The notes under the pieces were generated by a model that saw only the letters and a program-made list of their open reading frames with translations, searched no databases and was not told where the DNA came from. Of a stretch of 64,000 nt of DNA, positions 32,451 through 50,826 are shown one piece after another (the first letter of the stretch is position 1; each line of letters opens with the position of its first letter). A program made the translations under genes and the position numbers. This stretch comes from Wenxinia marina DSM 24838. GTDB lineage: Bacteria; Pseudomonadota; Alphaproteobacteria; Rhodobacterales; Rhodobacteraceae. The stretch is taken from positions 124,001-188,000 of the forward strand of contig NZ_KB902276.1 of the NCBI RefSeq assembly GCF_000379485.1. Direction: 5' to 3'.

Positions 32451-32484
32451 CAGCTTAATCACCGCTCAACCCTCCGTCCGAGGG

Positions 32485-46466: not shown

Positions 46467-46841
46467 ATGACCGAGACAGACGAGGCGCGGGACGATCGGT
46501 CCGCGTCCGACGAGGCGGAGCTCGCGGGTCTCAGGCGCGATGCGATCGCGCTGCTGGAGTCGGTGCGGACGTCGGTGAGGACCCTGCTGGACGGCGTGAA
46601 GGACGACGCCGCCAGCCACCCGGACGTCAGGGAACTGACGGCGCGTACCGCAGAGTACGAAAAGGCGATCCGCATCTACCTCGAGATCCAGACGCGGCTC
46701 GACGAGCTGTTCGCCAAGCATGCGAGGGTGATTGCCGCGTATGAAATCGACTTCGACGCCGTCCGGCACGACATCGGGTGCCGCCTCGCTCGCATCCGCG
46801 AGTGCTGCGCAGAGGGAGACGTTCCTGGCGACCCTGACTGA
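46467..46841 (+). CDS. GTA g1, probable small terminase
   Basis: 124 residues, helical and charged. It matches RcGTA gp1 in position and character: acidic N-terminus (DEARDDRSASDEAELAGLRR), then a central helical region VRTSVRTLLDGVKDDAASHP, then YEKAIRIYLEIQTRLDELFA. In Rhodobacter capsulatus gp1 acts as the small terminase (DNA recognition for headful packaging). The first gene of the late cluster. Its 3' end overlaps the large terminase gene by about 100 bp, which is more than usual. Confidence 0.82.
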   Translation: MTETDEARDDRSASDEAELAGLRRDAIALLESVRTSVRTLLDGVKDDAASHPDVRELTARTAEYEKAIRIYLEIQTRLDELFAKHARVIAAYEIDFDAVRHDIGCRLARIRECCAEGDVPGDPD

Positions 46842-48102
46842 GGCCGAGCTTCGCGGGCTGCCCTACCTGTTCGACTTCTGGGCGCTGCCGCACCAGCTTG
46901 CGCCGCCGGGGAACTGGCGGACGTGGCTGATCCTCGGCGGGCGCGGCGCGGGCAAGACCCGGGCGGGGGCGGAGTGGGTCCGGTCGATGGTCGAGGGGCC
47001 GACGCCGCGCGCGCCCGGCCGGGCGCGCCGCGTCGCGCTGGTGGGCGAGACCTACGACCAGACCCGCGAGGTCATGGTGATGGGGGACAGCGGCCTCCTC
47101 GCCTGCTCGCCCCCCGACCGGCGGCCGGACTGGATCGCGACCCGGCGCCTGCTGGTCTGGCCGAACGGCGCCGTGGCGTCCCTGCATTCGGCCAGCGAGC
47201 CGGAGAGCCTGCGGGGGCCGCAGTTCGACGCCGCCTGGGTGGACGAGCTGGCGAAGTGGAAGAAGGCGAAGGACACGTGGGAGATGCTGGCGCTGGCCGT
47301 GCGGCTGGGCGCCGACCCGCGGATCTGCGCGACGACCACGCCCCGGTCCGTGCCGTTCCTCAAGGCCCTGATGGCGCGCGACAGCACCGTGACCACCCGG
47401 GCGCCCACCGAGGCGAACCGGGCGAACCTCGCCGACAGCTACCTCGCCGAGGTGCGGGCGATGTTCGGCGACACCCGGGTGGCGCGGCAGGAGCTGGACG
47501 GCGAGTACCTCGACTCCGTCGATGGTGCGCTGTGGCCGTGGCCGCTGATCGAGCGGCAGCGCTGTGCCGGGGTGCCGCAGCTGACCCGTGTCGTCGTCGC
47601 GGTCGACCCGCCGGCCAGCGGGCATGCCGGGTCCGACGCCTGCGGGATCGTCGTTGCGGGCGCGGTCACGGACGGACCCGCCCTCGGCTGGCGGGCCTTC
47701 GTGCTGGAGGACGCGACCGTCGAGGCCGCCTCGCCGCAGGCCTGGGCCGAGGCGGCGGTCGCGGCCTACCACCGCCACGGCGCCGCGCGCCTCGTCGCCG
47801 AGGTGAACCAGGGCGGCGCGATGGTCGAGGCGGTTGTGCGGGGCGTCGATCCCCTCGTCAGCTACCGCGCCGTCCACGCGCAGCGGTCCAAGGCGATGCG
47901 GGCCGAGACCGTCTCGGCCCTCTACGAGCGCGGGCAGGTCTTCCATGCCGGGGGCTTCCCGCGGCTGGAGGAGCAGATGAGCCTGATGACAGCGCAGGGC
48001 TTCCAGGGCGGCGGCTCGCCCGATCGGCTGGACGCGCTGGTGTGGGCGTTGCACGAGCTCCTGCTGCGCCCGGCAGGCGATCCGCGGATGCGGGCGATCT
48101 GA
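46741..48102 (+). CDS. GTA g2, large terminase (ATPase/nuclease)
   Basis: 453 residues from ATG 46741 (frame opens at a TTG at 46732; GAGGGTG upstream). Motor of DNA packaging. Walker A in WLILGGRGAGKTRAGAEWVR, Walker B-like FDAAWVDELAKWKKAKDTWE, coupling motif CATTTPRSVPFLKALMARDS, nuclease Asp in VVVAVDPPASGHAGSDACGI and further acid in RLVAEVNQGGAMVEAVVRGV. RcGTA packages random host DNA, so the protein works without a specific cos/pac site. The next GTA gene (portal) begins 1.5 kb later instead of directly. Confidence 0.94.
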   Translation: MKSTSTPSGTTSGAASLASASAAQRETFLATLTEAELRGLPYLFDFWALPHQLAPPGNWRTWLILGGRGAGKTRAGAEWVRSMVEGPTPRAPGRARRVALVGETYDQTREVMVMGDSGLLACSPPDRRPDWIATRRLLVWPNGAVASLHSASEPESLRGPQFDAAWVDELAKWKKAKDTWEMLALAVRLGADPRICATTTPRSVPFLKALMARDSTVTTRAPTEANRANLADSYLAEVRAMFGDTRVARQELDGEYLDSVDGALWPWPLIERQRCAGVPQLTRVVVAVDPPASGHAGSDACGIVVAGAVTDGPALGWRAFVLEDATVEAASPQAWAEAAVAAYHRHGAARLVAEVNQGGAMVEAVVRGVDPLVSYRAVHAQRSKAMRAETVSALYERGQVFHAGGFPRLEEQMSLMTAQGFQGGGSPDRLDALVWALHELLLRPAGDPRMRAI

Positions 48103-48185
48103 CGCCGTCGCTGCCCGTACGGCCGGAACGACCGCGTGCGGCGGGGGTTGGAGGGGCGAGCCCCTTCAACCCATGGAGCGATCCC

Positions 48186-49037
48186 ATGACCGAGCACGCC
48201 TTTCCGCCGCAGCATCAGGACAGCATGCCGGCGGACGAGCACGAGATGACACCCGCGCCCGACTATACCCCGCGCTTTCCCGGGGTCGGCAAGCTGAAGG
48301 ACAAGGTCGCCTTCGTCTCCGGCGGCGACAGCGGCATCGGCCGCGCCGTCTCGGTCCTCTTCGCCCGCGAGGGCGCGAAGGTTGCCATCGCCTATCTGGA
48401 AGAGCACGAGGACGCCGAGGAGACGAAGCGCCTGGTGGAGGCGGAGGGGTCCGAGGCGTTGCTGATCCCGGGCGACCTCGGCCAGCGGGCTCACGCGTTC
48501 GACGCGATCGCGAGGACGGTGGAGCGGTTCGGCAAGCTGGACGTCCTCGTCAATAATTGCGCCCAGCAGTGGGTCGACGACCCGCTCGAGGACCTGAGCG
48601 AGGAGCGTCTGCGCCGGACGATGGACAGCAACGTGATGGCGCAGGTCTTCGTGACGCAGGCGGCGCTGGCGCATCTGAAGGAGGGGGCGGCGATCGTGAA
48701 TACGACCAGCGTCAACGCCTTCAAGGGCAACGATTCGCTGATCGCCTATTCGACCACGCGCGGCGCCACGCTGGCCTTCAGCCGGTCCATCGCCAAGGCG
48801 CTGATCAAGCGCGGCATCCGGGTGAACGCGGTGGCGCCGGGGCCGATCTGGACGCCGTTCATCCCCGGCTCGATGGACGCCGAGACGGTCGCCGGCTTCG
48901 GCACCCAGACCGAGATGGGCCGCGCCGGGCAGCCGTGGGAAGTGGCGACGGCCTACCTGTTCCTCGCCTCCGAGGACGGCAGCTACTTCAACGGCCAGAC
49001 GCTGCATCCCAATGGCGGGACCATCGTGGGGGCTTGA
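48186..49037 (+). CDS. Short-chain dehydrogenase/reductase inserted in the GTA cluster (YghA-like)
   Basis: 283 residues. N-terminal 40-residue extension rich in His/Pro, then Rossmann motif AFVSGGDSGIGRAVSVLFAR, NNCAQQWVDDPLEDLSEERL, catalytic Ser in VNTTSVNAFKGNDSLIAYST, and TGPIWTPFIPG-type C-terminus (VAPGPIWTPFIPGSMDAETV, GQTLHPNGGTIVGA). The expected YxxxK reads YSTTR: Tyr is present but Lys is Arg. This is the general-stress-type SDR group (YghA, GS39). It is not a GTA gene in known clusters. Same strand as the cluster, preceded by 83 bp. It may have moved here by insertion. Confidence 0.88.
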   Translation: MTEHAFPPQHQDSMPADEHEMTPAPDYTPRFPGVGKLKDKVAFVSGGDSGIGRAVSVLFAREGAKVAIAYLEEHEDAEETKRLVEAEGSEALLIPGDLGQRAHAFDAIARTVERFGKLDVLVNNCAQQWVDDPLEDLSEERLRRTMDSNVMAQVFVTQAALAHLKEGAAIVNTTSVNAFKGNDSLIAYSTTRGATLAFSRSIAKALIKRGIRVNAVAPGPIWTPFIPGSMDAETVAGFGTQTEMGRAGQPWEVATAYLFLASEDGSYFNGQTLHPNGGTIVGA

Positions 49038-49064
49038 GGAGCGGTTGGTCAAAGTAGGGCTGAT

Positions 49065-49152
49065 CCCGTCCCGGGCTCGACCCGGGACCTCGCGGGACAA
49101 TCCAGTGCGCTCCCGGGATCGCGCGAGGCCCCGGCTCAGGGCCGGGGCGGGA
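49065..49152. repeat. Mosaic hairpin repeat inside the GTA locus
   Basis: First stem in GTCCCGGGCTCGACCCGGGA (from 49068), CCTCG, a spacer of about 35 bp, then GCGAGG and a second stem in GGCCCCGGCTCAGGGCCGGG. Same layout as at 3608-3779 and 43650-43729. Placed 30 bp after the SDR gene, it may stop transcription entering the portal region. Confidence 0.65.
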
Positions 49153-49629
49153 TATTTCGAATCGAACGAGCTTGATCCGGCGGCCACCCCCCGCGGTCAC
49201 CTAAACGGGCTTGCTCATGGTCGACGTCTGCCGGACTGAAACTCGCCCGGACTCAGCCGCGCCAGCGGCCCGGGCAGCGTCTGGCCGCCCCTCCGGCCAG
49301 GCGCTTCCCCACCACCTGCGCGATGATCACCGTCGTCCGGAGCGGCTCCATAACGGACCGACCACAATCGTCGGAGCGTCTGACCGCGGCCAGACACTGC
49401 CCTCCGTCGGAAAGGGCTTCGGAGGCGCGGAACGCCGGCACGCCGGGTCCGCCAAAGCCATCATATCGGATCTGCCAACGCCCGGCACTCCGGCGAATCT
49501 GATCATCGGCAACCGAGACGCCTTCCCCGTTGCGCCCGACCTCCGCCCGCCGGCCGGTGCCCTTCCTCCGCCTTAAGCCACGTCCTGCATAACGGCCTCC
49601 ATCGACGCGCGGCGACCCGAGGAGGCCCA
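49153..49629. other. Gap between SDR gene and portal gene, no gene seen
   Basis: About 480 bp. Open frames on both strands (for example 49211-49576 plus and 49253-49630 minus) encode Arg/Pro/Gly-rich peptides without recognisable motifs, which is normal for random high-GC DNA. A near-perfect palindrome GTCTGACCGCGGCCAGAC lies at 49378-49395. No transposase or tRNA remnant could be recognised. The stretch could hold a promoter for the portal-to-g15 part of the cluster, but I see no convincing -35/-10 pair. Confidence 0.5.
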
Positions 49630-50826
49630 ATGTTCGACTTTCTGAAGCGCGACGCCGCGCCCGCCGGTCGGGTCGAGGCCCCGGCCGAGACCAAGGCGTC
49701 CGCGGCGGGGCGGGTGATCGCGATGGGCGGCTCGGGCCGGGTCGTCTGGTCCCCGCGCGATGCGCTCACGCTGACGAAGAACGGCTTCCTCGGCAATCCG
49801 GTCGGCTTCCGCGCCGTCCGGCTGATCGCCGAGGCCGCCGCGGCGCTGCCGCTGACGCTGCAGGATCGCGAGCGGCGCTACACCGCGCACCCCGTCCTCG
49901 ACCTCCTCGGCCGCCCGAACGCGGCGCAGGGGCGGGCGGAGCTCATGGAGGCGCTCTACGGTCAGCTCCTCCTGACCGGCAACGGCTACATCGAGGCGGT
50001 CGGCGACGCCGGCCTGCCGGTGGAGCTGCACGTCCTGCGCTCGGACCGGGTGTCGCTGATCCCCGGCGCCGACGGCTGGCCGGTGGCGTTCGAATACGCC
50101 GCCGGCGGGCGCAAGCACCGCTTCGCCGCCAGCGTCGACGGGCCGAGCGCGGTTTGCCACGTCAGGACCTTCCACCCCCAGGACGATCACTACGGCCTCT
50201 CCGCCCTGCAGGCTGCGGCGAGCGCGATCGACGTGCACAACGCCGCCTCCGCCTGGTCGAAGGCGCTGCTCGACAACGCCGCGCGGCCGTCGGGCGCCAT
50301 CGTCTACAGCGGCCCCGACGGCGCGGCGTCGCTGACGCAGGACCAGTACGATCGCCTCGTCCACGAGATGGAGACGCAGCACCAGGGTGCGCGCAACGCA
50401 GGGCGGCCGCTGCTGCTGGAGGGCGGGCTCGACTGGAAGCCGATGGGCTTCTCGCCGTCCGACATGGAGTTCCGGCAGACGAAGGAGGCCGCCGCGCGCG
50501 AGATCGCGACCGCCATCGGCGTGCCGCCGATGATGCTGGGGATCCCCGGCGACGCGACCTACGCCAATTACCAGGAGGCGAACCGGGCGTTCTACCGCCT
50601 GACCGTGCTGCCGCTGGCGGCGCGGGTGACGGCGGCGATCGCGGACTGGCTGTCGGACTTCGGCGGGGAGCGGGTGGAGCTGCGGCCCGACCTCGACCAG
50701 ATCGCCGCGCTCGCGCCCGAGCGCGAGGCGCAGTGGCGGCGCGTCGGTCAGGCGACGTTCCTGACGGCGGCCGAGAAGCGGGCGCTGCTGGGCCTGCCGG
50801 CGCTGGAGGTCGGCGATGACGGGTAG
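49630..50826 (+). CDS. GTA g3, portal protein (HK97 type)
   Basis: 398 residues. Dodecameric portal at the head-tail vertex. FDFLKRDAAPAGRVEAP at the start, then VSPRDALTLTKNGFLGNPVG-type segment (WSPRDALTLTKNGFLGNPVG), FRAVRLIAEAAAALPLTLQD, HPVLDLLGRPNAAQGRAELM, LLTGNGYIEAV and the conserved EFRQTKEAAAREIATAIGVP, PPMMLGIPGDATYANYQEAN. GGAGGCCCA precedes the ATG. It resumes the canonical GTA order after the 1.5-kb interruption. Confidence 0.94.
   Translation: MFDFLKRDAAPAGRVEAPAETKASAAGRVIAMGGSGRVVWSPRDALTLTKNGFLGNPVGFRAVRLIAEAAAALPLTLQDRERRYTAHPVLDLLGRPNAAQGRAELMEALYGQLLLTGNGYIEAVGDAGLPVELHVLRSDRVSLIPGADGWPVAFEYAAGGRKHRFAASVDGPSAVCHVRTFHPQDDHYGLSALQAAASAIDVHNAASAWSKALLDNAARPSGAIVYSGPDGAASLTQDQYDRLVHEMETQHQGARNAGRPLLLEGGLDWKPMGFSPSDMEFRQTKEAAAREIATAIGVPPMMLGIPGDATYANYQEANRAFYRLTVLPLAARVTAAIADWLSDFGGERVELRPDLDQIAALAPEREAQWRRVGQATFLTAAEKRALLGLPALEVGDDG

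Follow-up and report, generated by a model that had tools for sequence, protein, structure and literature searches.

The structural cluster of the Rhodobacter capsulatus GTA (RcGTA) is treated in the literature as driven from one promoter, which the published model places upstream of g1. GafA binds 76-125 bp upstream of this gene, and the endolysin promoter has been reported as bound by GafA as well (PMC6363796). CtrA half-sites have been reported in the head-spike, tail-fibre and lysis promoters (PMC9638019). In Caulobacter, a single start site is combined with antitermination (PMC11150451). The GTA cluster of D. shibae is not induced all at once, as parts of it differ in timing (PMC6473078). 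This timing fits more than one unit, without being proof of it. We found no described promoter or insertion between g2 and g3 in the open-licence literature; a description elsewhere is possible.

Here we describe a GTA cluster of Wenxinia marina DSM 24838 (genome assembly of 4.18 Mb) in which these two genes are far apart. All coordinates refer to the window, i.e., the whole 64,000-nucleotide stretch that was analysed.

Layout of the interrupted cluster

The ORF listing places g1, g2, g3, the protease, the capsid and the remaining GTA genes in order on one strand, between fabF-like and mltG-like genes upstream and a cysE-like gene downstream (neighbours assigned by ORF content, from reading the translations). 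The small terminase gene g1 (46467-46841, + strand, 124 aa) was recognised by its ORF and position, and it was the seed of the tblastn search for the g1 genes of relatives. The large terminase gene g2 (46732-48102, +; PF03237, PF17289) has an uncertain start codon, and the true one may lie further 3' than 46732. The portal gene g3 (49630-50826, +) matches PF04860 (E = 1.1e-90) and TIGR01537. A preliminary description of this DNA, made from its letters and ORFs, had the other GTA genes intact and in order. This holds for five genes through Pfam (terminase, portal, S78 prohead protease, capsid and NlpC/P60) and for the rest through ORF order alone; the GTA genes tested are full length. The cluster has what characterises RcGTA-like clusters (terminase, HK97-type portal, S78 protease, capsid and ordered tail genes on one strand), except for the adjacency of g2 and g3, which are 1527 bp apart here and adjacent in relatives. 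About ten other family members also lack this adjacency, which is no strict defining feature.

The late cluster had been described as interrupted between terminase and portal by 1.5 kb, and this is the case: the gap spans 48103-49629 and relatives have the two genes side by side. It contains, in this order, a hairpin, an SDR gene, a REP-like double hairpin, a copy of a 167-bp repeat and, on the 3' side, a stretch to which 49509-49629 belongs. The first of these, the hairpin at 48145-48172, separates g2 from the SDR gene; it is an inverted repeat with 13-nt arms that are 92% complementary, and it has no T tail. The SDR gene lies on the same strand, as previously noted (48186-49037, +), and encodes an SDR family oxidoreductase of 283 aa. 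The protein matches PF13561 with E = 3.6e-54 and 184.3 bits (curated cut-off 27); its nearest NCBIfam model is NF005214, for which it scores below the cut-off. The double hairpin was correctly spotted but is 91 bp long instead of 88 (49063-49153), with 35-nt arms that are 80% complementary and nested perfect 8-nt palindromes, and similar pieces are found elsewhere in the genome. The DNA that follows the SDR gene is gene-free, as stated, but for 592 bp (49038-49629) rather than about 480 bp. It is also not featureless: the 167-bp repeat and a conserved regulatory element had both been missed. An Rfam scan of the region from 46 to 51 kb gave sub-threshold matches only, and a scan for sigma-70 promoters and terminators returned no terminator and one promoter-like site, inside the SDR gene.

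The repeat copy is at 49244-49410 (+ strand), with sharp ends in an alignment of 31 copies. A sequence model finds 93 matches in the W. marina genome, many of which span the whole repeat. The congener (genome G001) has a single weak match, and other genera give a few, likewise weak. Going by these matches, it is a lineage-specific repeat family. The repeat is GC-rich, is frequently found beside REP-like palindromes and has no Rfam match. There was no signal of target-site duplication in 21 copies, and the terminal inverted repeats typical of MITEs were absent, inverted segments being only subterminal. The fold of the single sequence is strong (z = -4.8). A role as structured RNA was not supported, with compensatory change in 0 of the 29 consensus pairs.

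Origin of the insert

Because the terminase and portal genes are neighbours in the congener and in about 25 relatives, with no SDR gene between them, the extra DNA was, by this comparison, inserted in this lineage, at the stop codon of g2. An SDR gene at this junction was absent from every relative checked, the congener included, which makes the arrangement an interruption. The g2-g3 gap usually measures about 130 bp (in the named Rhodobacteraceae loci where it was measured). In the window, the last 121 bp of the gap (49509-49629, +) can be aligned to the congener's entire g2-g3 gap. The alignment begins directly behind the congener's g2 stop, where 12 of 13 bases are identical. Since the alignment starts there, these 121 bp would be the retained ancestral gap, and the insert would cover about 1.4 kb from the g2 stop onwards (48103-49508), with an exact 3' border that depends on the single comparison with the congener.

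We rejected the SDR gene as an ancestral member of the GTA cluster for two reasons: its distribution is patchy, with a close SDR in just 6 of 61 family genomes, and its place in the congener is different. There its neighbours are a gene for an ABC permease on one side and one for a purine nucleoside phosphorylase on the other, and these two abut in W. marina with no SDR gene between them (loci L063 and L146).

Other genomes carry other DNA at the same position. Six Salipiger-type genomes (L083, L086, L103, L111, L115, L137) have, on the opposite strand, a gene for a GNAT acetyltransferase, and a metagenome-assembled genome has a gene for a GT87-family membrane glycosyltransferase between g2 and g3 (L109:7419-8702). 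Further inserts are 1.7 kb with no clear gene (L072), 0.6 kb with an antisense ORF (L100) and 0.5 kb (L085). Insertion at the g2-g3 junction is thus a recurrent event.

The element upstream of g3 and its distribution

An alignment of 88 g3-upstream regions reveals a conserved block made of GTTGCGC, CNCCGnnCGGTG, TTAA and then A.A.TG. In 17 of 18 cases, CGNNCGGTS and TTAA are 13 nt apart. To avoid circularity, we used leave-clade-out models to scan the full locus on both strands: their best match is just upstream of g3 at 70 of 75 loci (50 of 54 clusters), the window included. There, the element is the top match of the held-out model in 24 kb, albeit a weak one (4.5 bits). The nhmmer match spans 49529-49594 (+ strand) and includes the dyad CGCCGGCCGGTG (49548-49559, +), the best-scoring dyad in the whole gap. 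The composite CGNNCGGTS-N13-TTAA (49551-49576, +) stands 54 bp before g3 and has just one other match in the whole 4.18-Mb genome. Elsewhere in the window, at 32451-32483, there is a weak minus-strand match to the g3-element model (7.6 bits).

The half-site CGNRCGGT is enriched upstream of both genes: 40 of 89 g3 regions (3.5 in shuffles) and 23 of 59 g1 regions (3.1 in shuffles) contain it. The core promoter TTGAC-N17-GTA is present in 40 of the 59 g1 promoters and in 0 of 89 regions at g3, so a promoter of the g1 type was rejected for g3. Of the CtrA box TTAA-N7-TTAA, no more than one TTAA is conserved, at a fixed distance, which amounts to a half-site at most. We infer that this TTAA is a CtrA half-site and that GafA and CtrA are the binders of the element. 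The W. marina genome encodes a GafA-like protein (DUF6456, 401 aa, E = 2.4e-54).

For R. capsulatus we examined genome G308, which contains the exact published promoter primer; we treat it as R. capsulatus itself or a very close relative. The half-site CGTGCGGT is found there at -123 to -116 of g1, inside the GafA-bound probe (-125 to -76). The g2-g3 gap of this genome has CACCGTACGGTG and holds CCGTTGCAGGGGCACCGTACGGTG; in this copy before g3 the dyad is present and TTAA is not at the 13-nt spacing. Because the element also precedes g3 in relatives with short g2-g3 gaps, and the dyad does so in the R. capsulatus-like genome, the comparative data make it an ancestral and family-wide feature, not a consequence of the insert.

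We then searched the composite in 14 named genomes, partly chosen for their g3 sites. It gave 30 matches, 24 of them at GTA-regulon genes: portal (9), g1 (1), GhsA-like DUF2793 genes (4), pectate-lyase-like tailspike genes (4), GH108 endolysin genes (3) and luxI (3 sites). The tailspike and GhsA names come from Pfam domains and published RcGTA descriptions, with no direct comparison to the R. capsulatus proteins. When the portal matches are left out, 15 of 21 are still at GTA-regulon genes. The reversed pattern, used as a control, gave 69 matches, and none of the 30 loci examined was at a GTA-regulon gene. The total for the composite is thus below that of the control (30 versus 69), and only the location of the matches is striking; by this location, the composite appears as a mark of the GTA regulon.

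The composite also precedes genes of signalling functions. It is found before luxI-type autoinducer synthase genes in Salipiger aestuarii (L155 and L167, genome of L111) and in Tropicibacter (L180, genome of L082), twice in tandem in one genome, which suggests that the GTA regulon feeds back on quorum sensing. In Pseudoponticoccus (L165, genome of L138), it stands 70 bp before the gene of a response regulator whose SpoIIE phosphatase domain is of the type described for the partner-switching system affecting RcGTA. As for g1 itself, the leaders of several relatives (e.g., L076, L109, L115, L136, L139) and L185 have TTGAC-N17-GTA, often with CGGT in the spacer, and an intrinsic terminator between this promoter and g1. 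The arrangement is reminiscent of antitermination of the Q type, and an antiterminator role of GafA would agree with it.

Transcription across the junction and known systems

An ordinary gap has only about 17% of its length on the 5' side of the element (median 24 bp). Yet this is the side on which all inserts of at least 500 bp lie, those of ten family members and that of the window, and their contents indicate at least six independent events (positions from held-out models for nine of the ten and for the window; the element of L100 was located by eye, with one mismatch). Since the long inserts are all 5' of the element, the needs of g3 would lie within about 110 bp upstream of it, and the distance from g2 would be free. 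Because the downstream genes have a conserved control element of their own, the insert is probably tolerated: we give a probability of about two in three to the reading that it is tolerated because g3-g15 have their own GTA-regulon control element directly upstream of g3.

According to this reading, about 1.4 kb (the SDR gene, the REP pair and one copy of the 167-bp repeat) would have been inserted at the 3' end of g2. The element controlling g3-g15 would consist of the dyad CNCCGnnCGGTG after GTTGCGC, followed at a fixed 13 nt by the TTAA that resembles a CtrA half-site. GafA, possibly with CtrA-P, would recruit RNA polymerase at this element, where we infer the transcription start, and the portal-to-tail unit would start separately from g1-g2, alongside the head spike, tail spike and lysis genes. 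A second promoter before g3 is well supported by the sequence comparisons. It had been proposed in the preliminary description as driving g3-g15, and it survives as a predicted ancestral feature of the family, not as a product of the insertion. The accompanying idea that the packaging motor could be uncoupled from particle synthesis fares less well: the insert sits 5' of a pre-existing regulatory boundary and probably uncouples nothing new.

Several observations speak against a second promoter. The published model has the single promoter upstream of g1, Caulobacter shows the single start site with antitermination, and no core promoter of the g1 type is recognisable at g3. The weak score of the window's own element, the R. 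capsulatus-like copy without TTAA at the 13-nt spacing and the low total of composite matches count against it as well. The read-through proposed alongside it would then account for the locus: a single transcript from the g1 promoter, made resistant to termination by GafA, would cross the insert, and the g3 element would serve for reloading or in some accessory role, not as a promoter. GafZ, which is homologous to the C-terminal part of GafA, antiterminates in Caulobacter, where its element lies between -35 and -10 (PMC11150451), and CGGT is often in the corresponding spacer of the g1 promoters of relatives. Intrinsic terminators occur in 10 of 40 g1 leaders under strict settings (1.3 in shuffles), and terminator-like hairpins in the g2-g3 gaps of 22 of 81 relatives (4-12 in shuffles), too few for terminators in these gaps to be a general rule, which we rejected. 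What such a transcript leaves unexplained is the presence of the same kind of element before g3 and before the separate endolysin, GhsA-like and tailspike-like loci, and the opposite-strand GNAT gene between g2 and g3 in Salipiger-type genomes. We regard it as rather unlikely as the sole explanation. Read-through, possibly by antitermination, may coexist with a g3 promoter.

The element might instead work in RNA, as a conserved leader that controls the translation of g3 or the processing of its mRNA; it lies in the last 110 bp or so before g3, and a short hairpin could form in some copies, as judged by eye. Yet unrelated GTA-regulon genes at other loci have the composite in front of them too, and a rigid spacing like the one seen would be expected of a DNA-bound complex, so that we find this hardly plausible at all. 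That the insert breaks late expression, with the GTA heading for inactivation, is also quite improbable. Some 1.4 kb with strong hairpins now separate g2 from g3, but the GTA genes tested have kept their full length, the GafA-like gene is present in the genome and the composite has been kept 54 bp before g3.

The reading in which g3-g15 have their own control element may extend beyond this genome. We lean, by a little, towards a model in which Rhodobacteraceae GTA clusters comprise two units, g1-g2 and g3-g15, the latter with its own late promoter under GafA/CtrA control, possibly in R. capsulatus too; packaging motor and shell would be separately timed, and the junction would be a safe site that accumulates cargo genes. 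The g3 regulon element predicts such a second, separately timed unit and provides a concrete sequence for the model organism. If true, this would explain how genes as unlike as those for an SDR, a GNAT and a glycosyltransferase can lodge inside a phage-like cluster.

Among known systems, the paired GC-rich palindromes dispersed in the genome resemble REP/BIME-type repeats. In Caulobacter, terGTA consists of three GC-rich repeats of 150 bp that follow gtaT (PMC11150451). It shares with this locus the presence of GC-rich repeats with inverted repeats after the terminase gene, but here there is one copy of a genome-wide dispersed repeat and a REP pair, with no T tail. The GafA-bound g1 promoter of RcGTA (PMC6363796, PMC9638019) shares the CGNRCGGT half-site with the g3 element; it differs in having TTGAC-N17-GTA, in place of which the g3 element shows GTTGCG and, 13 nt downstream, TTAA. 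The late promoters of R. capsulatus (head spike, tail fibre and lysis), with their putative CtrA half-sites and GafA sites (PMC9638019), can be likened by their description: in several genomes the composite precedes homologues of the genes they serve (GhsA-like DUF2793, pectate-lyase-like tailspike and GH108 endolysin), whereas the site described here stands before the portal gene, inside the main cluster.
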